This document shows positions 2,191 to 51,307 of a stretch of 51,307 nt of DNA, piece after piece. The DNA comes from an uncultured Mycoplasmatota bacterium (lineage in GTDB: Bacteria > Bacillota_I > Bacilli_A > RF39 > UBA660). Each line of letters begins with the position of its first letter. Within the stretch, counting starts at the first letter, position 1. The notes beneath the pieces were generated by a model. The model ran no database searches and had not been told where the DNA came from. It worked only from the letters and a program-made list of their open reading frames with translations. Where the stretch lies: assembly GCA_948434005.1 (NCBI GenBank), contig CAOJEH010000010.1, positions 1 to 51,307 of the forward strand. The letters are read 5' to 3'. Both the position numbers and the translations under genes were made by a program.

Positions 2191-2277
2191 ATTATCACCT
2201 ATTCATATTATACTACTTTTTTATTATAAAACAATATCATTTTATTAGGTAAAACATAAAATACTATAGGTGATACT

Positions 2278-2499
2278 ATGAAGTTTAGAAATCCAAGACA
2301 TAATTTCTTTTGTAATTGTAATGCTTGTAAGCAAAAAAGAAGAGGTAGCCTCTTTTACTTATCATTAATCCTCATTGTTCTAATAATAACATTTTATCAA
2401 GCATTAATTCTTATATTTATAACTACTAAATTTAATGCAATTATACTATTCATTGAATTCATCATTATATTCTTCCTCTTCTTCCTCATTTTCCTTTAA
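2278..2499 (+). CDS. Small Cys-containing membrane protein (hypothetical)
   Basis: A 73-residue frame with a well-placed SD (AGGTGAT, then ACT, then ATG). The N terminus is basic and carries a CNCNAC motif at about residues 12-17, followed by two strongly hydrophobic stretches that would span the membrane with a short linker. Its last 54 bases overlap the 3' end of the convergent gene at 2446-3357, so the C-terminal hydrophobic tail is partly read from that gene's acidic-tail codons in antisense. I do not recognise a family. The SD and sensible topology support expression; the overlap argues for caution. Confidence 0.45.
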   Translation: MKFRNPRHNFFCNCNACKQKRRGSLFYLSLILIVLIITFYQALILIFITTKFNAIILFIEFIIIFFLFFLIFL

Positions 2500-3357
2500 A
2501 ACAAAATCTCTAGTTTTTCCTACATATTTAATCATATTAGAAACTAATAAGCAATTATTATAATTATTACTTGTAAATATTATTTTTTCAGGTATAGATA
2601 TTAGAGCTAGAAATAATAATTTTTCATCCTTTGTATAATTAAATCTTGATTTATATATACTAAATAATGTAGTCATTTCTAAATCTATATAATCATGTTT
2701 ATAAAAGTATAAAAAATCATATATTGGAATATCCCTTCTATAGTTATTCCAACTTATTAGAGATTTTTCATTACCAACTAGAAAGTGATCAATACATGGT
2801 TTATTATGAAGAAGAACAATTCGTTCTTTTTTTTGTTTTATTTTATATTCATACCATTCGTCTAATTTCAATTTTGAATATCCTAAGGCAGAATATACCA
2901 TAGATAAATTTCTCATTAGTAAATACTCTGCTGGAGACATATATACTTTTTGTTCTATCATATCTTGCATATCATGATAATAATGATTTAAATATTTTAT
3001 TTCTTCTATCTTTTTTTCATATATTTCTTTTACTTTATCTATTGATACTTCCTTATAATAAGTTGTTTTATTATGTAATAGGCTTAGTATATATACTAGT
3101 TCTACTGCTTTTTCAGGTTTTGGTATATTTACTTCATTTATATATGGATATACTTCATAATCATTAAAATCTTCTTTTTCTAAAACATAGTTAAAGTTTC
3201 TATTTATTAAATATTCATATAAACCATTATCATAATTATTTTTATGTTTTATTACATATTTACCTTTATTTGTATTAACTATTTTTATATTATTTTTTTC
3301 TTCATAGCTTCTAATATTTAAATCATATTTATTTATAAATTCTTTTATGTTATTCAT
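2446..3357 (-). CDS. CotS/YsxE-like kinase-fold protein
   Basis: A 303-residue protein with the layout of the CotS/YsxE branch of the aminoglycoside-phosphotransferase fold. It has an N-lobe (IKIVNTNKGKYVIKHKN ... YEYLINRNF ... YEVYPYI), then a C-lobe with VLLHNKPCIDHFLVGNEKSLISWNNYRRDIPIYDFLYF. The last corresponds to the catalytic HxDxxxxN loop and downstream metal-binding Asp; here those residues read as HNKPCIDHFLV and ISWN, so catalysis is probably weakened or lost. In B. subtilis ysxE lies directly beside spoVID, and here the gene overlaps the SpoVID-like gene by 8 nt (ATGAATAA), so they are co-translated. The C terminus is a Glu-rich tail. Family assignment is by motif and neighbour; the role is inferred. 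Confidence 0.65.
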   Translation of the reverse strand: MNNIKEFINKYDLNIRSYEEKNNIKIVNTNKGKYVIKHKNNYDNGLYEYLINRNFNYVLEKEDFNDYEVYPYINEVNIPKPEKAVELVYILSLLHNKTTYYKEVSIDKVKEIYEKKIEEIKYLNHYYHDMQDMIEQKVYMSPAEYLLMRNLSMVYSALGYSKLKLDEWYEYKIKQKKERIVLLHNKPCIDHFLVGNEKSLISWNNYRRDIPIYDFLYFYKHDYIDLEMTTLFSIYKSRFNYTKDEKLLFLALISIPEKIIFTSNNYNNCLLVSNMIKYVGKTRDFVLKENEEEEEEYNDEFNE

Positions 3358-39409: not shown

Positions 39410-39483
39410 GCGGATGTAGTTTAATGGTAGAACCTTAGCCTTCCAAGCTAACTACGGGAGTTCGATTCTCCTCATCCGCTCCA
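39410..39483 (+). tRNA. trnG: tRNA-Gly (anticodon TCC)
   Basis: 74 nt including an encoded CCA. Acceptor stem GCGGATG / CATCCGC, D-arm with TTTAATGGTAGAAC, anticodon stem TTAGC / GCTAA with loop CTTCCAA (anticodon TCC, reading GGA/GGG), T-arm GGGAG TTCGATT CTCCT. It marks the left edge of the accessory region, and its 3' end is partly repeated at the right end of the window (51295-51307). Confidence 0.96.
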
Positions 39484-39495
39484 TTGAGTATTTAG

Positions 39496-39523
39496 TTGCT
39501 AACCCTATGGTTAGCAATTTTTT
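39496..39523 (+). terminator. Terminator of tRNA-Gly
   Basis: A perfect 9-bp stem TTGCTAACC / GGTTAGCAA with CTAT loop, followed by six T residues. Confidence 0.9.
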
Positions 39524-39546
39524 CATTTATAGATATAGAAAAGTTG

Positions 39547-39580
39547 AATACTTCCTTTCAAATTAACGAAAGGAGGTATT
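39547..39580 (+). promoter_or_regulatory. Hairpin that buries the ribosome-binding site of gene 39584-39880
   Basis: Arms AATACTTCCTTTC (39547-39559) and GAAAGGAGGTATT (39568-39580) pair over 13 bp with one G-T pair and an 8-nt loop. The 3' arm contains the whole SD (AGGAGG, 39571-39576) of the gene starting at 39584. The hairpin is followed by T5 and so could also stop transcription. Translation would be off unless the structure opens. Confidence 0.6.
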
Positions 39581-39583
39581 TTT

Positions 39584-39880
39584 ATGTGTAAAACTTCTAC
39601 CCTTACTATTTTGGAAGATGATAGAAAACTTACTAAATTTATTTTAGAAAACTTTAAAGATTCTGATATTAAATCTACAAATGGTAGTGAAATGCTTATT
39701 TCTATTACTAATATCAAAAAAGTAAATCCTATCATTTATAAGGTTAAATCAAATAAAACAACACTTACTATTCTCTATTTTAAATGTAGTGATATAAAGG
39801 ATAAAAAATATTATATTCCAAAATTAAGACAAGACTTTAATTTATCAGAACTAAAAGATTATTTGAAAGGAGCTTTATAA
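39584..39880 (+). CDS. Hypothetical protein, first gene of the accessory element
   Basis: 98 residues, soluble, basic/acidic mixture, no recognised domain. Predicted helix-strand alternation with a short hydrophobic beta stretch (TTLTILYFKCSDI). Very strong SD AAAGGAGG, but located in a stable hairpin. Its stop is immediately followed by the ATG of the next gene, so the two are one translational unit. Confidence 0.75.
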   Translation: MCKTSTLTILEDDRKLTKFILENFKDSDIKSTNGSEMLISITNIKKVNPIIYKVKSNKTTLTILYFKCSDIKDKKYYIPKLRQDFNLSELKDYLKGAL

Positions 39881-40099
39881 ATGAAGAATTTTGAAAGATA
39901 TTTTATTATCAAGGTTATGTCTGAATTATTTGCTTACGAAATCTATTATATTTATAAAATGGATAAAAATGATATTAACAATCTAGAATATATTTACAAT
40001 GCACTATCTTCGCATTTAATATTTAATCCATATAAAAGTGAAATAATGGAATTAGGAAAATTAATTGCAAAAGTAGTTTATCAAATTCCTATACAGTAA
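39881..40099 (+). CDS. Small helical hypothetical protein
   Basis: 72 residues, probably all-helical (RYFIIKVMSELFAYEIYYIYKMDKND ... LEYIYNALSSHLIF). SD GAAAGGAG. Begins at the base after the preceding stop. I do not recognise a family. The pairing of two short co-translated genes recalls toxin-antitoxin organisation, but no toxin or DNA-binding motif is visible. Confidence 0.7.
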   Translation: MKNFERYFIIKVMSELFAYEIYYIYKMDKNDINNLEYIYNALSSHLIFNPYKSEIMELGKLIAKVVYQIPIQ

Positions 40100-40446
40100 T
40101 CTAAAGAATAATATAACTAAAAATTTGAAAAAACTCTTGACTCTAAATTATTATAGAGTTAGGATAATAGGCAATTAATTATTTAGGGGTCAAAGTTATA
40201 CCCATTCTTGTACGGTTAAAAGATGAACCTTAAAAATCTTTAAGACTATTATTATAGCTACAATGATATTGCTAATTCGGAAATTATTTAGGGAATCTAG
40301 AAATGGAATATAAAAATAAAAGTAATTTCAATTTAAGAAAATAAGCAAGGTACTAACCGAGGAGGGATTGTAAAGTTTGTAAGCATCTTTAAAAACTTAC
40401 AAAAGTTATATTGTTCTTTGAAAATTAAATATTGGAGGTGCTATAC
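40100..40446 (+). promoter_or_regulatory. Structured leader upstream of the recombinase operon
   Basis: A 347-bp stretch without a standard gene. It holds a promoter (TTGACT 40137-40142, 17-bp spacer, TAGGAT 40160-40165) whose spacer is an inverted repeat ACTCTA-N8-TAGAGT (40140-40159). It also holds two copies of AATTATTTAGGG (40177-40188 and 40282-40293) that bracket a run of small hairpins (GGGT/ACCC, GGTT/AACC 40214-40229, CTTAAA/TTTAAG 40229-40244, TAGC..AAT/ATT..GCTA 40255-40274). Further on are a possible 13-codon leader ORF (ATG 40303, stop 40342-40344, AGGG upstream), an 8-bp hairpin TTTGTAAG / CTTACAAA (40376-40403), and a boxA-like TTGTTCTTTGAAAA (40411-40424). The layout suggests transcription attenuation or antitermination control of the recombinase. 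Confidence 0.55.
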
Positions 40447-40827
40447 TTGAACGACGAAATCAAGGATTATATTGATTCGAAGTTCAGTGAAGTAAATAAA
40501 AAGTTGGATAATCTATTATCTCTATTTGAAAGAATTAGAAATAATGAGATTAGAACTCTGATGTACTCTCAATTATGTGCTAGACAATTAAATGAATTTT
40601 TCTTTGTTGATTGGTTAAGAAATCAGTCTCTTACTGGTTGTAAACCTTTCTATGAACAAGTAAAGAATAATCCACAATTTAAGGAAGCTCATCCCATTAC
40701 TAAAATGTGTGCAGAAGATTTAAAGGATTTAGTTGTTAAGAAAAGTAAAGGTAGAAAAGACCTAATAGAAGATGAATTTACTAAAAGTTTAGCATTTATT
40801 GGAGGTATAGAGGATACTCTTCTCTAA
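40447..40827 (+). CDS. Hypothetical protein preceding the recombinase
   Basis: About 126 residues starting at TTG (40447), which is six bases after GGAGGTG; an earlier in-frame TTG lies within that SD. N-terminal helix likely forms a coiled coil (IDSKFSEVNKKLDNLLSLFERIRNNEI). The remainder is helical, with W-L-R and KPFYEQVKNNPQF segments and no recognised fold. Ends ten bases before the recombinase ATG, so it is co-transcribed and may be a directionality factor or accessory DNA-binding protein; that is inference from position only. Confidence 0.7.
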   Translation: MNDEIKDYIDSKFSEVNKKLDNLLSLFERIRNNEIRTLMYSQLCARQLNEFFFVDWLRNQSLTGCKPFYEQVKNNPQFKEAHPITKMCAEDLKDLVVKKSKGRKDLIEDEFTKSLAFIGGIEDTLL

Positions 40828-40836
40828 AGGAGTAAA

Positions 40837-42567
40837 ATGGGCTTAAAAGCGGCGATTTATACTAGAGTATCAACAGAAGAACAAAGAGATTATGGTTATT
40901 CAATAGATGGTCAACTTCGTGAACTGAAAGATTATTGTAAAAAGAAAAAATATGATGTTGTAGATATTTATAACGATGCTGGATTTTCTGGAAAAAATAT
41001 GAATAGACCTGAACTAGAAAGACTATTAAAAGATATTAAAAATGGTCTTATTGATGTCATCGTTGCTATCAAAGTTGATAGACTTACTCGTGATGGTTAT
41101 GATGGACAATGGTTATTAAAAGAATGCAATAAATATGATGTAATGCTAGATTTACTTTATGAACAATACGATATTAATACAGTCAATGGCGAAATGATGT
41201 ATGGAATGAATTTACTATTTGCCCAAAGAGAAAGAAAAGAAATAGGAAATCGTACCAAAAGAGGTTTAGAAGAAGCAGTTAGACAAGGAAAATATCCTAC
41301 TCAAGTACCACTAGGATATTTTAGAGATGAAGAAGGATTTTTAACTATTGATCCAGTATCATCCCTTGTTATCAAAGATATATTTGAGTTATATGCTAAT
41401 GGTATGAGTATGAATGCTATTGCCGAAAAGTTTGAAAAAGAAAAACGATTTAATAAGAAAAATGCAAGATGGCGAGAAGATAAAATTTTGAAGATAATTT
41501 CTAATCCTATTTATAAAGGAGAAATTCATTGGCGAAGAACCACCTCAAAAGGAAAACAAAATCCTATAATTATTATCCCAAACCATTCTCCTAAAATCGT
41601 ATCTGAAGAACTATATGATAAGTGTCAGGAACAAGTAGAAAAAAATAAACATGGTGGATATGGAGAACATATTCATATCTTTCATTCTCTTGTGAAATGT
41701 CCTTATTGCAATAAACCTATGAGCAACTATTTCACTATCAAAAAAAGAGCTAGTGGAGATAAAGAATTCTATTATGTTATTTGTAAAAATCAATCTTGTA
41801 CAGGTAAAGGTAAAATCTATAATACTGAAAAAATAGAAAATGGTTTGATGAAATTATTAAATGCAATAACTACTGATTATAAACAAGATAAACATTCACT
41901 AATATTTGCTTATCAAGAAAAAAATACTGAACTAATTTCTATCAATAAAGCTCTTGATAAACTAAAAAAGGATGAACAACGATTATTAGATTTATATTTA
42001 GAAAGTTCCATTAATATTGAAATTATTAATAAAAAAAATGAGATGATTCAAAATGAAATTTCCAAGTTAGAAAGTAAAAAGTCTAAATTAGAGAAAAATA
42101 ATATTGAGGTAGAAAATCATTCTTTAAAAGAAATATTTGAAAGTAAGAGTAAAAATAAATTACTTGGAATAAAAAATATTTGGAATATATTAAATCGTAA
42201 TGATAAGAAAAAAATTCTAAATAGGTACATCAAATCAATAGAAATTACTATCGATGATAAATATAATATCGCAATTAAAAATGTAATATTTAATAATGAA
42301 TTTATAAATTATGGTATCAATAATCTAATGGATATTGCACTTGACTGTATCAAAGAAAGTAATGAAAATCTAACGATCCATAAACCAATCATTGATACAA
42401 AGATAACTGATGATTATACTCTTTCTCTACTTGAAGAATTTGAAGATAACAAAAATAATTTTCAACAGTTTTGGCAAAATATTATCAAAGAAAATTCAAC
42501 TCTTTATCCTATTTATGATTTAAGTAATGTATTAACAGACATAAAAGTTAAAGTAATTCCTGCATAA
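40837..42567 (+). CDS. Large serine recombinase (integrase/resolvase family)
   Basis: 576 residues. The N-terminal catalytic domain carries AAIYTRVSTEEQ with nucleophile Ser at about residue 12, SIDGQLRELKDYCK, IVAIKVDRLTRD, and the second catalytic Arg block. The 'recombinase' domain follows (VPLGYFRDEEGFLTIDP ... IYKGEIHWRR), then a zinc ribbon (CPYCNKPM ... CKNQSCTGKGK, about residues 285-330), a long coiled coil (KLKKDEQRLLDLYLE ... KSKLEKNN) and a C-terminal tail. Such enzymes integrate and excise elements at short att sites, without the tRNA preference of tyrosine integrases. SD AAAGGAG. It is the best candidate for moving this element. Confidence 0.95.
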   Translation: MGLKAAIYTRVSTEEQRDYGYSIDGQLRELKDYCKKKKYDVVDIYNDAGFSGKNMNRPELERLLKDIKNGLIDVIVAIKVDRLTRDGYDGQWLLKECNKYDVMLDLLYEQYDINTVNGEMMYGMNLLFAQRERKEIGNRTKRGLEEAVRQGKYPTQVPLGYFRDEEGFLTIDPVSSLVIKDIFELYANGMSMNAIAEKFEKEKRFNKKNARWREDKILKIISNPIYKGEIHWRRTTSKGKQNPIIIIPNHSPKIVSEELYDKCQEQVEKNKHGGYGEHIHIFHSLVKCPYCNKPMSNYFTIKKRASGDKEFYYVICKNQSCTGKGKIYNTEKIENGLMKLLNAITTDYKQDKHSLIFAYQEKNTELISINKALDKLKKDEQRLLDLYLESSINIEIINKKNEMIQNEISKLESKKSKLEKNNIEVENHSLKEIFESKSKNKLLGIKNIWNILNRNDKKKILNRYIKSIEITIDDKYNIAIKNVIFNNEFINYGINNLMDIALDCIKESNENLTIHKPIIDTKITDDYTLSLLEEFEDNKNNFQQFWQNIIKENSTLYPIYDLSNVLTDIKVKVIPA

Positions 42568-42587
42568 CAATTGTTATACAAAGTTAG

Positions 42588-42624
42588 AAGAATAGCATTT
42601 AAGATAATACTTGCTATTCTTTTG
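42588..42624 (+). terminator. Terminator after the recombinase
   Basis: A perfect 10-bp stem AAGAATAGCA (42588-42597) / TGCTATTCTT (42612-42621) with a 14-nt loop and trailing Ts. Confidence 0.75.
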
Positions 42625-42627
42625 ATT

Positions 42628-42690
42628 GTATTGAAAATACTGGGTAAAATCGCCACTGGCGATTTGTGGTAATACCCTCTTAACCTGATA
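42628..42690 (+). other. Nested hairpins next to relaxosome genes: candidate oriT
   Basis: GTATT/AATAC (42628-42640) is followed by a nested structure. The outer arms are GGGTA (42642-42646) / TACCC (42673-42677), and the inner perfect 8-bp stem is AAATCGCC / GGCGATTT with an ACT loop (42647-42665). The core CGCCACTGGCG is GC-rich against an AT-rich background. It lies just upstream of the ribbon-helix-helix and relaxase genes, the usual place of an origin of transfer. The nick site cannot be assigned. Confidence 0.5.
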
Positions 42691-42711
42691 AAATCTAAAG
42701 GAGGAATGATT

Positions 42712-43074
42712 ATAGATAAAAATCAAGAAATGATAACAATTAAAGTTGATAAAACTTTTAAAGAAAGAATAATAAAACAATCTAGTATGGAAGATAAATC
42801 AGTATCAGAATTTATTAGAAATTTAATAAATAATGAACTAACTCGTAATGATATTTCTAAAAATCAAAGTTATTTATCTGAAATATTAGAGATTATCATT
42901 AAAAATATAATAGATGAAAAATTAAATACAATTAATAAAATACTTGAATCACTTTATTTAAAACAAGAGTTAATTATCTATCTACTAAAAACTTTTGATA
43001 AAGATAATTTTGAAGAGCAAATCAAAGAATTTACAACAACATATTTAGAGGATAATCTACGAACAATATTGTAA
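42712..43074 (+). CDS. Ribbon-helix-helix relaxosome accessory protein (MobC-like)
   Basis: About 120 residues. The N-terminal 45 form a ribbon-helix-helix DNA-binding fold (EMITIKVDKTFKERIIKQSSMEDKSVSEFIRNLINNEL). The rest is a helical/coiled-coil segment likely to oligomerise. Small RHH proteins next to a relaxase bind oriT and recruit the relaxase. Start choice: the ATG at 42706 is one base from GGAGG, too close; ATA at 42712 sits seven bases away and gives MDKNQEM. Either way the protein is nearly the same. The gene overlaps the relaxase start by 16 bases. Confidence 0.75.
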   Translation: MDKNQEMITIKVDKTFKERIIKQSSMEDKSVSEFIRNLINNELTRNDISKNQSYLSEILEIIIKNIIDEKLNTINKILESLYLKQELIIYLLKTFDKDNFEEQIKEFTTTYLEDNLRTIL

Positions 43075-44495
43075 TAGCAGGAGTCCAATATGAACAAAAT
43101 AGTAGTGTCCTATCTAGTCTTAAAGGTTGGATAGGATACACTACTAAAGAAGAAAAAATTGATAAGACTTCACTAAATAGTGAGTACAATAATAAATTAA
43201 GTTTATTAAAAGGAATATCAGAAACTGATTTTAGTTTAATAGAACACGATATAGGTATTTGGAATAGTAATGGAGATATTGATCCACTACAAGAATTAAA
43301 AGATATAAATTTTAAAGATTATAGTGGCTTTACTTGGAATGGATATATTTCGATTAAAAAGGAAGATACCTATAAACTAGGATTACTTACTAAAAAAGAT
43401 TACTACGAATATTCAAAAGCAATCGTTCCTAAATTAATTATGGATAGTGGTTTTGATATTCATAATGTAAAATGGTATGCTTGTCTGCATTTAGATAGTA
43501 AGAAAAACTATAATTTTCACTTCTTCTTTATGGAAGTGAAGAAAACAAAATATAAACATTCTGATCGATTGCTTCCTAAAAGTGCAATTAAGAAATTTAA
43601 AAGTAATGCTCTAAATTATTTAATTAATCGTGATGATATTTTAAAACTTAAAGATGAATTATTTATGGGAATAATAAAAGATGTTAAGATTAATAATCTT
43701 ACAAATTTAAAAAATGATAAATTATTTAAAACTAGCATAGAAAAGAAATTAAATAAGTTATATAAACAACTTCCAAAAGAACATCGACTACAATATAATT
43801 CTCCTAATCTAAATGAAGTAAGACCATTAGTGGATTCTATCATTAGTGATATTTTAAACCATCAAAATATAGTTAATAGTTATTATAAATATATTGAAAA
43901 ATTACACGATATTGATTTTCAAAATAAACAATATTATGGTTATTCAAAAGATGATAACTATGTTAACAATCAAATTAAGAAACTATATTCTAGAATTGGA
44001 AATGATATTCTATCTCACTATAAAGGTTATAAATCAGAAATATTTTTAAATAATCAAAAAGAATTCTTATCAAAAAATATCTTTAAATTAAATTTAAAAA
44101 CAAATAACAATATAACTGATAATAAAAAAATAGATTTAGGAGTATCACTTTATAAAATAGCAACTTATTATAATTTAAATAAAAATCAAACTAGAAAATT
44201 AATTCAAAAGTGGTACAACAAATCTAAATTTAATAGTAGTTTTGATAATTACTATAATGACTTATTATTAAAAATGAATAGTAATTTTAATCCATTAACT
44301 ATAACTGAATTTTACAAAACATTAAATGATATGAATATAAGTAATTCTAATTATCATAACTTAAAACAAAATTATTATATAAAGAAGTTTGTATATCATA
44401 AAATGATGTATAATGCTTTAAATCATATCAAATATGAAAATGAAAGAATAGAAAAAGAAATCATTGAAAGTATGAAAGATGAACTCAATTACTGA
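43059..44495 (+). CDS. Relaxase-like mobilization protein with ACG start and altered HUH motif
   Basis: 478 residues if initiated at ACG 43059-43061, which is seven bases after AGAGG. The frame is closed by TAA only two codons upstream, and the reading frame from there is continuous; annotating from the first ATG (43440) would lose 127 residues. The N terminus (NNIVIAGVQYEQNSSVLSSL ... IGYTTKEE) and TWNGYISIKKEDTYKLGL ... HNVKWYACLHLDSKKNYNFHFFFMEV fit the MobP/MobL-type relaxase layout. The metal site normally written NxHIHxxxxE here is N152-F-H154-F-F156-F-M-E159, with the second histidine replaced by Phe. A long helical C-terminal part follows. It would nick oriT if active. Confidence 0.7.
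   Translation, partial: TNNIVIAGVQYEQNSSVLSSLKGWIGYTTKEEKIDKTSLNSEYNNKLSLLKGISETDFSLIEHDIGIWNSNGDIDPLQELKDINFKDYSGFTWNGYISIKKEDTYKLGLLTKKDYYEYSKAIVPKLIMDSGFDIHNVKWYACLHLDSKKNYNFHFFFMEVKKTKYKHSDRLLPKSAIKKFKSNALNYLINRDDILKLKDELFMGIIKDVKINNLTNLKNDKLFKTSIEKKLNKLYKQLPKEHRLQYNSPNLNEVRPLVDSIISDILNHQNIVNSYYKYIEKLHDIDFQNKQYYGYSKDDNYVNNQIKKLYSRIGNDILSHYKGYKSEIFLNNQKEFLSKNIFKLNLKTNNNITDNKKIDLGVSLYKIATYYNLNKNQTRKLIQKWYNKSKFNSSFDNYYNDLLLKMNSNFNPLTITEFYKTLNDMNISNSNYHNLKQNYYIKKFVYHKMMYNALNHIKYENERIEKEIIESMKDELNY
43100..43146 (+). repeat. Long inverted repeat near the relaxase start
   Basis: Arms TAGTAGTGT-CCTATC (43100-43114) and GATAGG-AT-ACACTACTA (43130-43146) form a 15-bp stem with a 2-nt bulge and a 15-nt loop. 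It lies inside the relaxase coding sequence (codons about 14-30). Such a stem could regulate translation, act as relaxase recognition hairpin, or be part of oriT. Confidence 0.7.
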
Positions 44496-44540
44496 TGATT
44501 TCTTTTTCTATTATATATATTTTATGCCTCTAATAAACAA

Positions 44541-44581
44541 AGAAAATGCTAATCGAAAATTTTAGTTGATTTTTTTAGCAT
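44541..44581 (-). terminator. Terminator after the sortase gene
   Basis: Stem ATGCTAA (44546-44552) / TTAGCAT (44575-44581), long loop, with TTTTCTTTG on the minus strand afterwards; overlaps the sortase stop region. Confidence 0.55.
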
Positions 44582-45299
44582 GAAGAACAATACGATACCT
44601 ATCATCTACATCACAAGTAGATAACGTTAATATTCTATCTTCTTTTGTTACTTTTATATTATAATTATAATTACTTCTTAATTTCATATTTTTTATAAAT
44701 CTTTCATATTCTTTGTCATTTATAAAACTTGACTTGATATAGTAGTTTTCTTCTTTTATTCTGTATGTAGAAAAAACTTGATATTTACTAATTTCATTTT
44801 CAGTAACAAATATGATTTTCAAATTGTCTTCATTATTTTGCCATTCACTTGATAATGTCTTCTTTAAAGTACCAAACATACTACCATCAATTCTTGCATG
44901 AGCAAATAATGATATATTTTTATCAGTTCCATCAAATCTATTTAGATAATTTGCAAAAACCCAACCTGCTTTATTTTTTTGTTTATAAAAATTATGATTA
45001 AGATAAAATTCATTATTACTAGATTTTACTATTGGATATTCTATATTAGTATTACATACTTTAATCCATGCAACTATATCAGAATTTTTACTCTTTAATT
45101 CTTCGAAATCAATTTTATAAATATCCTTACTTTCATCTACTTCTATACTATTTTCTATAATATCTCGTACTTCGTTATTTTCCTTATTTTCAGAATACCA
45201 TATATATATTTTTACAACTGATACAATTATTAAAAAAAGAAAAATAATTTCATTTATATAAATCCAAACAATTCTCTTTAATTTATATTTTTTATTCAT
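44562..45299 (-). CDS. srtB: Class B sortase
   Basis: About 245 residues. N-terminal TM anchor (WIYINEIIFLFLIIVSVVKIYIWY), then a sortase beta-barrel with class B features: NSDIVAWIKVCNTNIEYPIVKSSNNEFYLNHNFYKQKNKAGWVF, catalytic His in SLFAHARIDGSMFG, catalytic Cys in LTLSTCD and Arg in DRYRIVLHAKK. It would cut the sorting motif of a surface protein and attach it to peptidoglycan or a pilus. The gene lies directly downstream of a protein with an NPRTS motif, its likely substrate. The start is the ATG at 45297-45299, with GGGTG upstream; the upstream ATG has no SD. Confidence 0.92.
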   Translation of the reverse strand: MNKKYKLKRIVWIYINEIIFLFLIIVSVVKIYIWYSENKENNEVRDIIENSIEVDESKDIYKIDFEELKSKNSDIVAWIKVCNTNIEYPIVKSSNNEFYLNHNFYKQKNKAGWVFANYLNRFDGTDKNISLFAHARIDGSMFGTLKKTLSSEWQNNEDNLKIIFVTENEISKYQVFSTYRIKEENYYIKSSFINDKEYERFIKNMKLRSNYNYNIKVTKEDRILTLSTCDVDDRYRIVLHAKKIN

Positions 45300-45334
45300 A
45301 TGAACACCCATCAGAAATTAACACTTAATTTATA

Positions 45335-46483
45335 TTAGTTGATTTTTAATCTTCTTTTCTTTATAAAGATTACAATAATAAGACCTGTAATACTTAATAC
45401 TAATGTCATTATATAAATAAATATATTATCACTTGTTCTAGGATTTATTACATTTGCACTATTAGTATTTGAAGTAGGACTTAATCCATTATTAATAGTA
45501 GTTTTTTCCGTATTGTTACTTATGGCTGTACATTCAATATTGATAGTAACATCACTTTTTGGCATCACAAATGAATTATCTTGTAAGATTAATTCATTAC
45601 CATCACTATCAGCTACATAAATACTATCAATTTTATAACCATCATCAATATCAATTGAATAAAAAACAATATTGCCTGGTAATTCACTAGAATTCACATT
45701 TATAGTGCCATTATTAATATTAGTACTTATATTATATTTGAATAACTTTTTTGAAATCTCTATTACTGGTCTGATACCGGCAGTAGATTCATCAGTATAA
45801 CCTTCAACTATTTGACCACCTGATACTATTTTCCATGCATTATCTTTATTGGTAGAAGCTGTACTAGTCCAATAAGCAGAAGTAACAGTACTATTATTTA
45901 GACATCCAAAATTTACACATGAACTACTAGTTCTATCGTATAACCATCCAAAATTATATGATGTTGGAATTTCAGTCGTTTTTGTATCAAAATAATACCT
46001 CATATGATTCCAATTATCTTTACCAGTTATCTTATTTATTTCAGAAGCAGTAATAATTCTAGCAGTATAATCAGAATAATCAAGAGCATATGTATAATAT
46101 CCACTTTGAGTTACATTAAATTTTTGACTAACTTTTGTTTTCCAAGTAGCAGTATCTAATTTTAATTGCCTTAACAACTCCGTTGGTGATTGACCCATGC
46201 TATTACACCAATAACTATTTTTTGTAGTATTGTGATCTAGAATGGCATTAAAATTATCATTATCAATGCTATCATTAAAGATATACCATTTCATACATCC
46301 TGTTTTTGTTCCTATATCACTATTTACCTCTTCTTTATTACATAGTTGGTAGGTTTCTGGATTAAAATAAATTTCGCTTCCATTACTAACAGTACCATTA
46401 GTTGTAGATAAAGCTTTAGCATTGCAATTAAATAAAAAACAAAAGCTTATCATAAAAAAAATTACTATCTTTTTATAATTCAT
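45335..46483 (-). CDS. Secreted surface protein with sortase-B-type sorting signal (NPRTS)
   Basis: 382 residues. Signal peptide (KIVIFFMISFCFLFNCNAKA, cleavage near 24). A large body of about 240 residues contains WYIFND, SAYWTSTASTNKDNAWKIV and AGIRPVIEI blocks, as in C-type-lectin-like/FISUMP or DUF6273 surface domains. Next comes one InlB-type B-repeat-like module (NISTNINNGTINV ... FVMPKSDVTINIEC), then a Thr/Asn linker. The C-terminal sorting signal is NPRTSD, a hydrophobic helix (IFIYIMTLVLSITGLIIVIFI) and a KKRR tail. NPxT[S/N/G] is the class B sortase motif. Encoded just upstream of srtB. Ligand unknown; probably adhesion. Confidence 0.88.
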   Translation of the reverse strand: MNYKKIVIFFMISFCFLFNCNAKALSTTNGTVSNGSEIYFNPETYQLCNKEEVNSDIGTKTGCMKWYIFNDSIDNDNFNAILDHNTTKNSYWCNSMGQSPTELLRQLKLDTATWKTKVSQKFNVTQSGYYTYALDYSDYTARIITASEINKITGKDNWNHMRYYFDTKTTEIPTSYNFGWLYDRTSSSCVNFGCLNNSTVTSAYWTSTASTNKDNAWKIVSGGQIVEGYTDESTAGIRPVIEISKKLFKYNISTNINNGTINVNSSELPGNIVFYSIDIDDGYKIDSIYVADSDGNELILQDNSFVMPKSDVTINIECTAISNNTEKTTINNGLSPTSNTNSANVINPRTSDNIFIYIMTLVLSITGLIIVIFIKKRRLKIN

Positions 46484-46515
46484 AATATCACCTCATACTT
46501 AAAATAAACTTACTA

Positions 46516-46617
46516 TTACTTGCATATTATTCTCACTAAAAATACAATGACTGCTATTGGCCAACAAAGCAGAAGTAACAGTGAATATGCAACTATTTTT
46601 AATATAAACCTCATCAT
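46516..46617 (-). CDS. 33-residue membrane peptide leading the sortase operon
   Basis: A short frame of 33 codons: MMRFILKIVAYSLLLLLCW followed by PIAVIVFLVRIICK, a single hydrophobic helix with basic ends. AGGAG is correctly spaced before the ATG, and the operon promoter lies 20-50 bp upstream, making this the first gene of the sortase/surface-protein transcript. Function unknown; a small membrane protein or toxin-like peptide is possible. Confidence 0.5.
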   Translation of the reverse strand: MMRFILKIVAYSLLLLLCWPIAVIVFLVRIICK

Positions 46618-46638
46618 ATATCATCTCCTAATGAATTC

Positions 46639-46668
46639 ATTATAGCAAAGTTATCCTAACTTTGTAAA
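46639..46668 (-). promoter_or_regulatory. Promoter with operator for the sortase operon
   Basis: On the minus strand TTTACA (46663-46668) and TATAAT (46639-46644) are separated by 18 bp. The spacer and hexamer edge form a perfect palindrome CAAAGTTA-TCC-TAACTTTG (46646-46664), so a repressor bound there would exclude RNA polymerase. The divergent XRE protein is the obvious candidate. Confidence 0.65.
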
Positions 46669-46674
46669 TATTTT

Positions 46675-46716
46675 ACTGATATTTTATCAGTATATAATCA
46701 ATACTAATTTTAGTGA
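46675..46716. promoter_or_regulatory. Further palindromes in the XRE/sortase intergenic region
   Basis: A perfect 7-3-7 palindrome ACTGATA-TTT-TATCAGT (46675-46691) has the same spacing as the operator in the sortase promoter but a different sequence. A smaller dyad ACTAA-TT-TTAGT lies near 46705-46716. They may be additional sites for the divergent regulator or its autoregulation. Confidence 0.4.
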
Positions 46717-46769
46717 TAATAGTTCATAATATAGTATAGAAAATATCTATTAAATAAATGGAGGTTTCT

Positions 46770-47075
46770 ATGCGAGTAAAGCAAACCGAAGAAGAAAAAC
46801 TAATATTAAAAACAATTGGTAATAATATAAAGTTTTATAGAATTAATAATAATTGTTCGGATAAAGATACTGATGATTTTGGAAGAATAAGTCAAGAAAA
46901 ACTTGCGGAATTATCTGGAACAAGTCCATCTATGATTGCTAATTTAGAGGCGACTAATGTTGTACAAACAGTTAGTATAGTTCTTTTGAATAAAATCTCA
47001 AAAGCAGTTAATATTCCTTTATATGCATTTTTTTTGGAAAAGCCTATTAAAAATCCCCCTAAAACTATTAAATAA
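46770..47075 (+). CDS. XRE-family transcriptional regulator
   Basis: About 101 residues. N-terminal helices lead into an XRE helix-turn-helix: KTIGNNIKFYRINNNC ... ISQEKLAELSGTSPSMIANLEA ... VSIVLLNKISKAVNIPLYAFF. The HTH is split by an unusual acidic insertion (SDKDTDDFGR) between helix 1 and the recognition unit. The start is the ATG at 46770, with TGGAGG spaced five bases; an ATG four codons earlier overlaps that SD. Divergent from the sortase operon, with palindromes between, so probably a repressor of both directions. Confidence 0.88.
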   Translation: MRVKQTEEEKLILKTIGNNIKFYRINNNCSDKDTDDFGRISQEKLAELSGTSPSMIANLEATNVVQTVSIVLLNKISKAVNIPLYAFFLEKPIKNPPKTIK

Positions 47076-47107
47076 AATAGTTATGATTTTTCATAGCTAT
47101 TTTTTTA
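47074..47107 (+). terminator. Terminator after the XRE gene
   Basis: A 13-bp stem with one G-T pair (AAAATAGTTATGA / TCATAGCTATTTT), TTTT loop and a run of T, beginning at the stop codon. Confidence 0.9.
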
Positions 47108-47294
47108 TCAAAAGATAATAAAACTATTTTTCTAATTCACACAAAAAATTACTATATTGATGAACTTTTTTTATAATTGGCTGTATAATTTATCAAATAA
47201 ATGAATTTAAATGCAAAAACAGAAAATTAATACTCATATTACAATTTCTACATAACTATTATATGTTATAATAAATGAAAGGAAGCGATTATGT

Positions 47295-49214
47295 ATGAAA
47301 TTACAATTTTACAAAGAAAACTATAATAATAATATAAGATATTTTATTGCTATTATTAGTAAGTATAAAAACCAGAATATCCTACCTATTGAATTTAACA
47401 TTTTTTCTTGTAATCAATTATTAGATGAAGTCATTTTAGAATGCAAAAGTAATAAATTAATGAATAAAACAAATAATGATTTAATAAACAAAAAAATTGA
47501 TTTCTTAATAAAAGAAGATTATTTATTAAATAAATATCAGATTAATAATTTGAATCATCTAAAAGAAAAAATTTATCAAAAAAATTCAAGTTTAGTATAT
47601 ATATTATGTTTAGAAATCAAAAAACAATTTCATAATAGAAAATACTTCAATTATTTAGTGGATCAATTAATATTATTTTTAAAAGAAGATGAAAATGATA
47701 ATTCAATTTATATAAAAAATATAGTAGATAATATTTATATGGAATTATTATGCAAAGGTTACTCCATAAAAAAAATATCAGAAATGATAGAAAAACTATT
47801 TTCTAAATCAGAATACGATGAATCATCAAACCTTAAATTTCCAAACAGTTCATTTCCTATTGAATTTATTATTGGACTAAAAAAGCCTAAGGAAATTAAT
47901 GATTTTATTAATAATTTATCAATTTATGAAAGAATAAATTACATAAAAAATTATTATACTTTAAGGATAAAAAATTATTATTTGATAGTTCCAATTAGTG
48001 GAATTACACTCACAAATAAAATTTTAAATTGTAATAGAGATATTAATTTATATAATCCTGAATATATAGATCCATATTCATTACAATCTGAAAATCCAGA
48101 TATTAGAGAGGATAAATTTAGAGTTGATTATAAAAATTGTGCTAATGCCCGTGTAAAAATAAATGCATTAAATAGTGAAGCAGCTTATAAATCAGGAATA
48201 AAAAAATTGGACAATTATATTAATATCCTCAAATTAATATCTCCTGCTAATAATTTAGATATCATTAGCAATGATAAAATTTTACTAGATAATAAAAAAA
48301 GAATAGCAGCACTACATTTGTCAGCATATGATAATGAATATAGTAAAAGGAAATTTGAAAGAAATATTTGTCCCATAAATGAGGATGAAATATTTGGTGA
48401 TACAACTATTAAAAAGATTAATAATAAAATAACTAATTTAATTTGTTCCAATGAAGATAAAAAAAATAACACTGAAATTATTTTACTTAATTCAGTTAAG
48501 AAATATTCAGAGGCATTAGACAATACCAATGAGCAAGAAGCAATATTAAAATACTGGGCATCAATTGAAAGTTTATTTGATAAAAATTTAAAAATTGAGA
48601 ATATTAACAATAAATTTGAATTAATAAAAGAAATTATTTCAACATATATGACATATTCTTTGAGATATGCGTCTTTGCATGAACTATACCATGAATTAGA
48701 GATTGCAACAGGATTACGCCATGATAATAAAAATAGAAAAAAATATAGTATGTTTAATTTACCAGTAAAACTGCTAAAAAAAGTAAATTTATATGAAGTA
48801 TCAAATAAATCATTTTCCCTATATCCTCTTATAAAGTACAATAGCGAAATAAAAAAATATATTGATGATTACTATTATTTTCAAAAAGTAGATTATGTTG
48901 ATAAATACTTTAATGATATAGATTTTTCTAAAAAGGAAATAAAAAGGATTAAAAATGATTATGATACAAGTATAATTATAATCTATAGACTTAGAAATCA
49001 AATAATTCATAATGCTTTAAGCAACGATATAACTGCAGAGTTTTATTTACCCTTATTAAAAAAAATATCAAACTTCTTTATAAATGAAGTATTAGATGAA
49101 TATCTTAATAACGAAGATTTAACAATTAATGAAATAATACTTAAAATTTACACAAAATCAACTTTATTCATAAAAAATTCAGAAAATTGTACGTTGAAAT
49201 CCTTGCTTTTTTAA
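47295..49214 (+). CDS. Large HEPN-motif protein, candidate defence RNase
   Basis: 639 residues, Lys/Asn/Ile-rich, soluble. No domain is recognised in the first 370 residues. The C-terminal half has the look of a large HEPN protein. NEQEAILKYWASIESLFDKNLKIENI is the helix found at the start of ApeA-like HEPN domains (W-x-x-IE-LF). Near the C terminus IIYRLRNQIIHNAL contains the R-x4-H motif (RNQIIH) that forms the RNase site in HEPN enzymes. Such proteins cleave RNA in abortive phage defence. SD GGAAG near an ATG at 47295; another ATG at 47291 opens a frame of only 11 codons. Preceded by a 219-bp gap with a likely -10 (TATAAT near 47268-47275). Convergent with the nuclease-like gene. Confidence 0.65.
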   Translation: MKLQFYKENYNNNIRYFIAIISKYKNQNILPIEFNIFSCNQLLDEVILECKSNKLMNKTNNDLINKKIDFLIKEDYLLNKYQINNLNHLKEKIYQKNSSLVYILCLEIKKQFHNRKYFNYLVDQLILFLKEDENDNSIYIKNIVDNIYMELLCKGYSIKKISEMIEKLFSKSEYDESSNLKFPNSSFPIEFIIGLKKPKEINDFINNLSIYERINYIKNYYTLRIKNYYLIVPISGITLTNKILNCNRDINLYNPEYIDPYSLQSENPDIREDKFRVDYKNCANARVKINALNSEAAYKSGIKKLDNYINILKLISPANNLDIISNDKILLDNKKRIAALHLSAYDNEYSKRKFERNICPINEDEIFGDTTIKKINNKITNLICSNEDKKNNTEIILLNSVKKYSEALDNTNEQEAILKYWASIESLFDKNLKIENINNKFELIKEIISTYMTYSLRYASLHELYHELEIATGLRHDNKNRKKYSMFNLPVKLLKKVNLYEVSNKSFSLYPLIKYNSEIKKYIDDYYYFQKVDYVDKYFNDIDFSKKEIKRIKNDYDTSIIIIYRLRNQIIHNALSNDITAEFYLPLLKKISNFFINEVLDEYLNNEDLTINEIILKIYTKSTLFIKNSENCTLKSLLF

Positions 49215-49440
49215 TAAATAATACTGTCATTACGTTATCATATTATTATAAAAATTTTACTGTTAATAGTATCTAGATTGAAGTTTATAAATTATCAATA
49301 TAGGTTTCACTTTTAGTCCAAACACACCTTGTGTAGTATAAACTATTACTACATGAATAAATTATAAGAACTCTTTTATCCAAGTAATTCTTTTTTAAAA
49401 AGATAGCTATCTGGTAGATTATAATTATGTAATTTATCAT
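49215..49440. other. Intergenic gap between convergent cargo genes
   Basis: 226 bp without a credible gene. The only structure seen is a weak hairpin around 49368-49399 (AAGAACT ... AGTAATTCTT followed by T6), which could terminate the HEPN gene. Nothing else supported. Confidence 0.4.
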
Positions 49441-51186
49441 TTAATTATTAAAAAAATATGAGATAGGATAAGAAAGATAAATTTGTTTCTCTTCCTCATT
49501 CAATTTAGAAAATAAAAGATTTGCTTCTTTTAAATTACCAATTAGTAGATTAGCAGATATTTTATAAAAGTTCTCTTCATTTTTGTCCCTAATTTCAATT
49601 AATGTTTCAATCATTTTTTCGGTCAGTTTTCCTTTTCTTTTATATATTTGCGCCCTATTTATAAAAACAATATCCTTAAATTCTTCAAATTTTTCTATTT
49701 TAAGTAATAAGTATTCTGCATAATTTAATAATTCTTCTTTTTTTGTAAAATCATATGCTTTAATTACTTCTAACACTTGAAAATTTAATAAATTTTCTTC
49801 ATCTGGACTTAATTTATAATCCTCAAACTTTTTTTTCATTTCTTCAATATTAACATCATCAGAAATATAAGCTTCTTTATTCAATATAGAAAAGAAATTT
49901 TGAGTTGTAATTTTATTTTTATCTTCCACATAAGTAAATTCATATTTTTTCATAGAGTCTGAATTCCAAATGCTATAAACATCAAATCCATCATCAGGAC
50001 GCTTACTTGCAAAAATAGAAAATTTAAGATCATTGATTCTTATAGAACCAATGGTCGACATATCAAACTCCTTTATTCTTATGGGCTTGTGTTGGTCTAT
50101 TGCATCTATCCAAATTAAAAAGTCATTTATATCTTTAGAATTCCAATTATTTAAATTCAAATCTTTTTTTATTTTATGCGTATTTAAAAATTTTTTCATT
50201 CTATTATATAAAGCACATTGTATAAAAAATCGTTTTTTATCTTGTTCAGTGACCGCAAGATTTAAAAAGCTCTCGTTAATTATAAATCCTTTATCATTAA
50301 TCAAACTTTCAATAAATTTCAATTGATTAATTCTTTCCTCTAGTGTTCCCTGAATTTCTATATTAAATTTGCGATTTTTGAAGTCCAATTCAAATGCTTT
50401 ACCAAATAAAATTTTACTACTTTCTGAAGTTATACTATGATTAGCAGTAGAATAAAATACCTCTCTATTCTTGTTTGTAATACTAATTTTTAATGATTCC
50501 TCAATTGCAAATATAGTAGCATAATCAATATTGATTATATTATTTTTATCATCATATTGATATATATACTTTTTTTCTCCTAATAATCCAAAAACAGATT
50601 CATCAGGGGTTCTCCAGTCATAAAACCTAACTTCTGAAACTTGGTTATTAATTAATAAGTTTTCTTGATTAAATATATTTTCACTTATCTTTTTTTGCTC
50701 TTTTTTATTAATCGAAAAATTTCTTACTATTCTTTCTAATTGATTTGAATTTTTAATCTCTTTCAATTTGATTTTAACTTGATTTTTTGAATTTGGTCTT
50801 TCTTTTAAAAGTTTTCTCAAAATATATGGTAACAATTCTGCACAATATACTTTATAATCTCCATCTTTTTTTAAAAGTACTTCGAAAAAAATTGTCCCAT
50901 CTACTTTGATATAATTTTCTAAATCCCTTTTATCTATATAAAAAATACGTTTTTCTTGTAATCTTTTTGAGGGTGTTGTTCTTCCTTTAATTTGGATACT
51001 TATTGTGTCATCAAAATTTTCCTTTTTATCAATATTACCATGGTATAATTTTATAAATCCATCCCAAGAAATTCCCTTATCATCATCATTAAAATCATGA
51101 TCAATATAATCTCTTTCATCTATTAATTTCTTAATAATATCAACTGCTCTTTTTTCTATCTTTTTGTTTCCTCTGTCTCCAGCCAT
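49441..51186 (-). CDS. DUF4365-like nuclease-domain protein with C-terminal helical repeats
   Basis: 581 residues. Residues about 10-130 resemble the DUF4365 nuclease-like domain. EKRAVDIIKKLIDERDYIDHDFN is followed by KGISWDGFIKLYHG (Asp) and DDTISIQIKGRT (the Q/E-x-K element of the PD-(D/E)xK fold), and FFEVLLKKDGDYKVYCAELL. The middle is unrecognised. The last ~120 residues are TPR-like helices (VLEVIKAYDFTKKEELLNYAEYLLLKIEKFEEFKDIVFINRAQIYKRKGKLTEKMIETLIEIRDKN). SD TTTGGAGG. Proteins with this N-terminal domain are common in defence islands, where they are thought to cut invading DNA; this link is inferred. Confidence 0.65.
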   Translation of the reverse strand: MAGDRGNKKIEKRAVDIIKKLIDERDYIDHDFNDDDKGISWDGFIKLYHGNIDKKENFDDTISIQIKGRTTPSKRLQEKRIFYIDKRDLENYIKVDGTIFFEVLLKKDGDYKVYCAELLPYILRKLLKERPNSKNQVKIKLKEIKNSNQLERIVRNFSINKKEQKKISENIFNQENLLINNQVSEVRFYDWRTPDESVFGLLGEKKYIYQYDDKNNIINIDYATIFAIEESLKISITNKNREVFYSTANHSITSESSKILFGKAFELDFKNRKFNIEIQGTLEERINQLKFIESLINDKGFIINESFLNLAVTEQDKKRFFIQCALYNRMKKFLNTHKIKKDLNLNNWNSKDINDFLIWIDAIDQHKPIRIKEFDMSTIGSIRINDLKFSIFASKRPDDGFDVYSIWNSDSMKKYEFTYVEDKNKITTQNFFSILNKEAYISDDVNIEEMKKKFEDYKLSPDEENLLNFQVLEVIKAYDFTKKEELLNYAEYLLLKIEKFEEFKDIVFINRAQIYKRKGKLTEKMIETLIEIRDKNEENFYKISANLLIGNLKEANLLFSKLNEEEKQIYLSYPISYFFNN

Positions 51187-51236
51187 TTAATTACCTCCAA
51201 AAGAATAATTTCTATTAATATTATATCATAGATGGT

Positions 51237-51255
51237 TGCTATTTTCTCAATAGCA
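51237..51255. repeat. Short hairpin near the right end
   Basis: A perfect 7-bp stem TGCTATT / AATAGCA with a 5-nt loop, upstream of the final direct-repeat-like sequence. It may be part of a recombinase-binding site or the end of an outside transcript; no T-run makes a terminator likely. Confidence 0.3.
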
Positions 51256-51294
51256 TGGTAATATCGTTATAGAAAGGGAGTTAGCAACTTCCAA

Positions 51295-51307
51295 CTAATT
51301 CGCTCCA
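51295..51307. repeat. Partial copy of the tRNA-Gly 3' end: possible right attachment site
   Basis: CTAATTCGCTCCA matches the tRNA end CTCATCCGCTCCA (39471-39483) at 11 of 13 positions, with the last seven identical. GGGAGTT, the 5' part of the T-arm, also occurs 19 bp earlier (51277-51283). The window stops exactly at this repeat. Short and imperfect, so only suggestive. Confidence 0.4.

Follow-up and report, generated by a model that had tools for sequence, protein, structure and literature searches.

A predicted DREN-type nuclease with a TPR-like tail and a possible HEPN protein, two separate cargo genes of a putative integrative element in a Mycoplasmatota tRNA-Gly gene

The window analysed here is one whole contig (C10) of 51,307 bp, from the 1.45-Mb assembly of an uncultured Mycoplasmatota gut bacterium. 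Close to its right end, within a probable integrative element inserted in a tRNA-Gly gene, lie two convergent genes separated by a gap of 226 bp, both starting with ATG: the first (47295..49214, + strand) encodes a 639-aa protein without detectable homologues and with a putative C-terminal HEPN domain, and the second (49441..51186, − strand) encodes a 581-aa predicted nuclease, in which a DREN (DUF4365) domain is followed by a middle domain and a TPR-like tail. Codon statistics prefer the annotated frame of each gene (0.276 bits/codon for the 639-aa gene and 0.424 bits/codon for the 581-aa gene), the five other frames being all negative, and a purine-rich ribosome-binding site precedes both of them. 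These observations confirm that the two open reading frames (ORFs) are real genes, on the strands and at the positions where a sequence-only reading of the contig had put them. The G+C content of the 639-aa gene is 20%, vs. 27% in sampled core genes. A promoter scan gave results at chance level, and a terminator was looked for but none was found.

The N-terminal domain of the 581-aa protein covers residues 1–165 (50692..51186, − strand). In the 66-sequence alignment from which both conservation and a structure model were derived, E11, D36, D42, G43, I45, Q65, K67 and Q513 are invariant (66/66 sequences), and D42, Q65 and K67 make up the catalytic pattern D...Q-x-K on a PD-(D/E)xK core. These residues agree in order and motif with the catalytic D41/Q60/K62 of the NbaSPARDA DREN domain, in which D41 and Q60 hold Mg2+ (PMC12205087), and with Q62/K64 of TmuRE, which had been chosen by alignment and changed to alanine for an inactive protein (PMC10810196). 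The structure model has a mean predicted local distance difference test (pLDDT) of 90.7; SPARDA chains occupy ranks 1–7 in Foldseek, and five SPARDA entries occupy ranks 1–5 in a VIA search, where residues 2–166 align with Z-scores of 11.1–13.7 and root-mean-square deviations of 2.5–3.6 Å over 131–144 residues. A viral structure library returned small DUF4365 proteins only, with no full-length match to the model.

The C-terminal part (residues 456–581; 49444..49821, − strand) is modelled as eight helices, with D479, N510, Q513 and R517 conserved, and it matches TPR-type repeats, among them those of PlcR and Rap proteins, with Z-scores up to 9.4, a range common among helical repeats. The RRNPP receptors that superpose on it (PlcR, RapH and Rap of pLS20; Z 7.9–9.4) carry no nuclease. 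Between these two parts, the middle domain (residues 166–455; 49822..50691, − strand) is β-rich in the model and barely covered by structure matches; in particular, the SPARDA chains matched by the full-length model did not align to it. Mean entropy is lowest in the nuclease domain (2.25 bits), intermediate in the TPR-like part (2.54) and highest in the middle domain (2.88), which is therefore the least conserved of the three. Altogether, conservation and the model support the view that the 581-aa protein is a DUF4365/DREN-type PD-(D/E)xK nuclease, by predicted activity, with a TPR-like tail. The D...QxK core and the TPR-like repeats, both proposed from the letters of the sequence, are therefore borne out, and the predicted fold is the PD-(D/E)xK fold expected for such a core, with SPARDA DREN as its closest counterpart.

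The whole protein belongs to a family that already has a number in PHROGs v4, phrog_9827, which it matches over its full length (residues 7–579 of 581 vs. 5–579 of 584; E 1.6e-61, 209.8 bits). This is the sole significant library match of the protein itself, and the function of phrog_9827 is undescribed in that release. A homologue, L003 (38–39% identical), matches Pfam DUF4365 (PF14280; E 1.1e-6, 29.2 bits vs. a cut-off of 24.3). Neither the 581-aa nor the 639-aa protein has a match in PADLOC-DB 2.0.0, where their parts gave one chance-level match, and a PDB sequence search with the profile of the 581-aa family gave one chance match (E 0.13). Scanning genome contigs gave 80 loci, the best 80 of 97 confirmed candidates, which come from Bacillota, Mycoplasmatota, Bacteroidota, Elusimicrobiota and others; further members are found on plasmids, in a C. 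difficile phage record and on IMG/VR contigs. Among relatives of the source genome, the gene is carried by 5 of 98 (own genome counted). In the family tree, the protein falls in a clade of 11 rows, most of them Bacilli and one a Clostridium bin; L004, from the same bacterial family as the source, falls in a clostridial clade. The tree and the patchy presence fit horizontal spread of the family without proving it. Relatives of the DREN domain also occur in longer proteins with other architectures (L094, 7980-11621, 1213 aa; L090, 3744-6299, more than 850 aa).

We considered the gene neighbourhoods of 88 family loci, naming neighbour clusters by reading their sequences, in line with Pfam. Mobility genes recur, namely tyrosine integrases (10 loci), relaxases (8), serine recombinases (8) and mobilisation proteins (7), and the 150 near neighbours include type III and type IIG methylases, MmeI-type enzymes, YhcG/DUF1016, GmrSD, Fic and TIR proteins. 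The L003 homologue stands directly before a C5 methylase (Dcm) and an Eco47II-type restriction enzyme. No constant partner gene was found in the 88 loci. The earlier expectation that the nuclease would be mobile-element cargo agrees with these restriction and mobility neighbours and with the map of the element described below. Two further arrangements were seen around family members. In four related clostridial loci (L033, L034, L036, L040), the DREN–TPR gene is preceded by one for a conserved protein, about 180 aa long or longer and deaminase- or NUDIX-like by eye; on the Priestia megaterium plasmid p6 (L015), the homologue has two DndB genes on one side and, on the other, an AAA ATPase/UvrD-helicase pair that, by annotation only, resembles Gabija.

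Such surroundings invite the idea of a restriction-like enzyme, whose middle domain would directly read modified or foreign DNA for the DREN domain to cut, with neither abortive infection nor a protein signal involved. The combination of a PD-(D/E)xK nuclease with a large variable domain, close to methylases and restriction enzymes, speaks for it, but a cognate methylase is not a constant neighbour, the TPR-like tail points to a ligand that is a protein or peptide and not DNA, and SPARDA uses DREN as a collateral nuclease without specificity (PMC12205087), so that we judge this explanation rather unlikely. Alternatively, the protein might work for the element that carries it, as a nuclease that acts on Holliday junctions or processes DNA ends. 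Many homologues do lie beside integrases and relaxases, and the next structural matches after SPARDA are the resolvases Hjc and RecU (residues 7–163; Z 7.6–8.7). Archaeal Hjc and Bacillus RecU are of the same PD-(D/E)xK fold class, and are small single-domain enzymes without a middle or TPR part. However, their match is weaker than that of SPARDA DREN. Moreover, other elements inserted at the same tRNA gene in congeners (L114, L115) contain no match to the 581-aa protein in the stretches read, and the gene therefore seems dispensable for integration. A service role for the element is, in our opinion, improbable.

The reading that we prefer, and to which we give about an even chance, is that the 581-aa protein is a stand-alone, one-gene anti-invader effector of the DREN type with its own sensor, the 639-aa gene being a separate piece of cargo. 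The gene, its family, its domain layout, its conserved catalytic residues, the element and the restriction and mobility company were obtained directly; from these, we infer a role in defence, DNA as the substrate and activation by a sensor located in the middle/TPR part. In such a scheme, the DREN domain (D42/Q65/K67) would be held inactive until infection, and the fast-evolving β-rich middle domain and the TPR-like tail, standing in for SPARDA's APAZ–Argonaute sensor, would detect a signal of infection. Activation might proceed through self-association or a change of oligomeric state (in NbaSPARDA, activity requires tetramerisation of DREN; PMC12205087), whereupon the nuclease would degrade DNA and kill either the cell or the invader.

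Several points weigh against this interpretation. The 581-aa protein itself stays below the Pfam DUF4365 cut-off, which L003 alone passes; its middle part (166–455) has no fold assignment; the sensor role of the tail is proposed by analogy; and the defence function, as read from sequence and model, is putative. The restriction and mobility genes around the family are company, recorded without a matched control, rather than a measured enrichment, and the mobility genes would equally fit a nuclease serving the elements themselves.

The comparison with SPARDA (NbaSPARDA, TmuRE-Ago) defines what may be new. Both begin with this nuclease domain, catalytic D and Q-x-K included, and SPARDA provides the closest solved fold, but about 415 residues of middle domain and TPR-like tail stand here in place of a recognised APAZ, and the protein is longer (581 aa vs. 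about 442 aa). Furthermore, no Piwi/Argonaute match was obtained among the nine proteins of the element (E up to 1). The DREN nuclease domain is known, and what appears new, according to sequence and model, is its pairing with a putative sensor part of its own instead of an Argonaute. In the open-access papers covered here, DUF4365 is described as a defence nuclease only together with an Argonaute, subscription papers and preprints being mostly outside this scope; likewise, no DREN–TPR protein is described there as a defence system, although a description in subscription papers or preprints is possible. If our reading is right, DREN would be a reusable effector, the same catalytic domain being joined to its own putative sensor in a widespread family, and defence catalogues, which at present lack this family, would gain a one-gene candidate. 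The 581-aa protein would also offer a compact system for studying the activation of a collateral nuclease, and a PHROG without function, phrog_9827, becomes a testable nuclease family.

The adjacency of the two genes at the end of the element speaks for a joint module, one of the possibilities raised in the sequence-only reading. As one system, they could be a toxin with a sensor, or a toxin with an inhibitor. Yet they are convergent, and hence not one operon; phmmer, run with the 639-aa protein on every ORF of the family loci collected by then, recovered only the protein itself, i.e., the neighbour is absent from all the other nuclease loci examined; and no partner gene is constant across the nuclease family. 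Because the genes are convergent, the nuclease occurs elsewhere without the 639-aa protein and no partner is constant, the two are separate cargo genes and not one conserved module, for which we found no support; that they nevertheless work as a single system is very improbable.

The 639-aa protein is harder to place. Its HEPN label comes from one string, R567-N-Q-I-I-H572 (48993..49010, + strand), an HEPN-type R-x4-H motif. No feature of the superfamily is better conserved than the HEPN motif, defined as R-x4-6-H with a polar residue after the arginine (PMC3710099), and R567, N568 and H572 fit this definition. However, RNxxxH is present in 1.7% of shuffles of the protein, and the motif alone is weak evidence of HEPN identity. 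Searches of Pfam, NCBIfam, PADLOC and PHROGs gave no significant match, to a HEPN profile or any other, though divergent HEPN domains are often missed by profiles, and a PDB sequence search gave nothing. The protein shares R-N-x3-H near its C-terminus with ApeA and other HEPN defence RNases, but neither it nor its parts match HEPN_Apea (PF18739), which has no match in its own genome either; the N-terminal domains described for ApeA are mostly β-strand (PMC3710099). A single-sequence model of residues 372–639 was unusable (pLDDT 36.5), and the all-helical nature of the region around the motif is presumed from the sequence. MauJ is matched below the threshold (E 0.05) over a stretch with the helix-like segment KYWASIESLF, upstream of the R-x4-H motif, and a MauJ-like protein, L103, has by eye a comparable helix and R-N-x3-H motif. 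Pairwise tests of the 639-aa protein against L103 and three ApeA-like proteins gave scores within the shuffle range.

Homologues of the 639-aa protein were searched for widely. Four genome searches, at the level of relatives, class, phylum and family, gave none; their samples overlap, so that the 1,176 genome draws stand for several hundred different genomes. None was obtained from plasmids and phages by tblastn, from IMG/VR with the whole, N-terminal or C-terminal query, or from genome contigs, where scans rely on short exact peptide patterns and make only close relatives visible. Four weak matches were rejected as due to chance: one inside a serine recombinase (L007), one beside a tilS-type gene (L096), one at a mutS-type gene (L097) and one in a VirB4-like ATPase (L098).

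The C-terminal HEPN motif noticed in the sequence-only reading thus exists, as R567–H572, whereas the HEPN assignment drawn from it received no support from profiles or pairwise tests. The protein is possibly an HEPN-type RNase effector, which makes for a reasonable lead and no more. The converse, that R-x4-H is a chance string in an otherwise uncharacterised cargo protein, which is no HEPN RNase, is a serious contender, a little short of even: the missing profile matches, the pairwise scores and the shuffles all favour it, but the typical polar N following R, the sub-threshold MauJ match on the helix-like segment and the high divergence of HEPN families argue the other way. At L103, the MauJ-like protein with R-N-x3-H lies beside an FRG-domain-like protein (by eye; 1054-2220 and 2248-3339), a possible HEPN defence pair.

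A bolder combination would make the DREN proteins one-protein immune effectors gated by a built-in TPR receptor for a phage peptide or protein, akin in shape to the peptide-sensing RRNPP receptors, the SPARDA nuclease being a plug-in joined to at least two unrelated sensors, and at the same time make the 639-aa protein the founder of a new HEPN family. Taken as a whole, this is a long shot.

The element that carries both genes was delimited from the tRNA-Gly (TCC) gene at 39410..39483 (+ strand; identified by ARAGORN), whose 3' end would be the left attachment site. Similarity to congener DNA extends to or near this 3' end, and in most congeners ends there. The last 7 bases of the tRNA gene, CGCTCCA (attL core, 39477..39483, + strand), are repeated as the final 7 bases of the contig (attR core, 51301..51307, + strand), and the same 7-mer separates tandem elements in a congener (L115); it occurs three times on the + strand in 51 kb. 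The attR core is deduced from this 7-bp repeat, the contig ending at 51307 and the far flank lying beyond it. A large serine recombinase of 576 aa, the predicted integrase, is encoded at 40837..42567 (+ strand; Pfam Resolvase 7.1e-37, Recombinase 4.7e-21), and a related recombinase is found at the same tRNA in L115. The features of a serine-recombinase element in a tRNA gene, i.e., an integrase and a direct repeat of the tRNA 3' end on both sides, are therefore present, with the far flank outside the contig. Because of the synteny break, the recombinase, the CGCTCCA repeat and the variability of the site in congeners, 39484–51307 (11.8 kb) is the most likely extent of the element, which is apparently complete and of the serine-recombinase type, inserted in tRNA-Gly, with the two genes as its last cargo. 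The position at the right end of an element, claimed from the outset, is thus upheld by the break at tRNA-Gly, the recombinase and the repeat at the contig end.

Besides these genes, the element encodes an RHH/Arc-like small regulator of 122 aa (42706..43074, + strand; weak matches to RHH_1 and to an Arc-like repressor PHROG), a 351-aa protein without significant family match (43440..44495, + strand) and an XRE-type helix-turn-helix regulator of 105 aa (46758..47075, + strand; Pfam HTH_3 4.3e-05, PADLOC HTH_VI 1.6e-8). With its gene 219 bp ahead of the 639-aa gene and in the same orientation, this last regulator may control the 639-aa gene. Two other cargo genes, for a sortase of 249 aa (44562..45311, − strand; Pfam Sortase 4.8e-12) and a probable surface protein of 382 aa (45335..46483, − strand; signal-like N-terminus and membrane-anchor-like C-terminus by sequence reading, no significant Pfam match), form a sortase and putative cell-surface protein set (44562-46483) that travels in the same element as the nuclease.

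The tRNA-Gly gene is an integration hotspot. In the congener G003 (L115, 1727-10180), it is followed by two tandem elements with CGCTCCA between them, each with its own recombinase and with different cargo, and yet another element with different cargo occupies it in G008 (L114). In G002 (L116), the same site seems empty, and in G001, G005 and G007 contig ends likewise fall at tRNA-Gly or close to it, as expected for a variable integration site. The last 121 bases of the contig, used as a query, matched no second contig in the own genome, and the gene downstream of tRNA-Gly in G002 was dropped as a marker of the right flank, two copies of it being present inside G000 contigs.

Finally, each element has an inverted repeat just inside its left end, here TTGCTAACCCTATGGTTAGCAA (window 39484-39523; in G003, L115, 1801-1840). 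Part of it recurs near the right end (window 51250-51307), as GTTAGCAA here and as TTCGTAAG in G003; these end repeats are perhaps binding arms of the recombinase or a tRNA terminator. The cargo of the G008 element (L114, 1002-4106) includes a helicase-like protein of 1035 aa with a Walker-type motif near its N-terminus, possibly a further defence gene.

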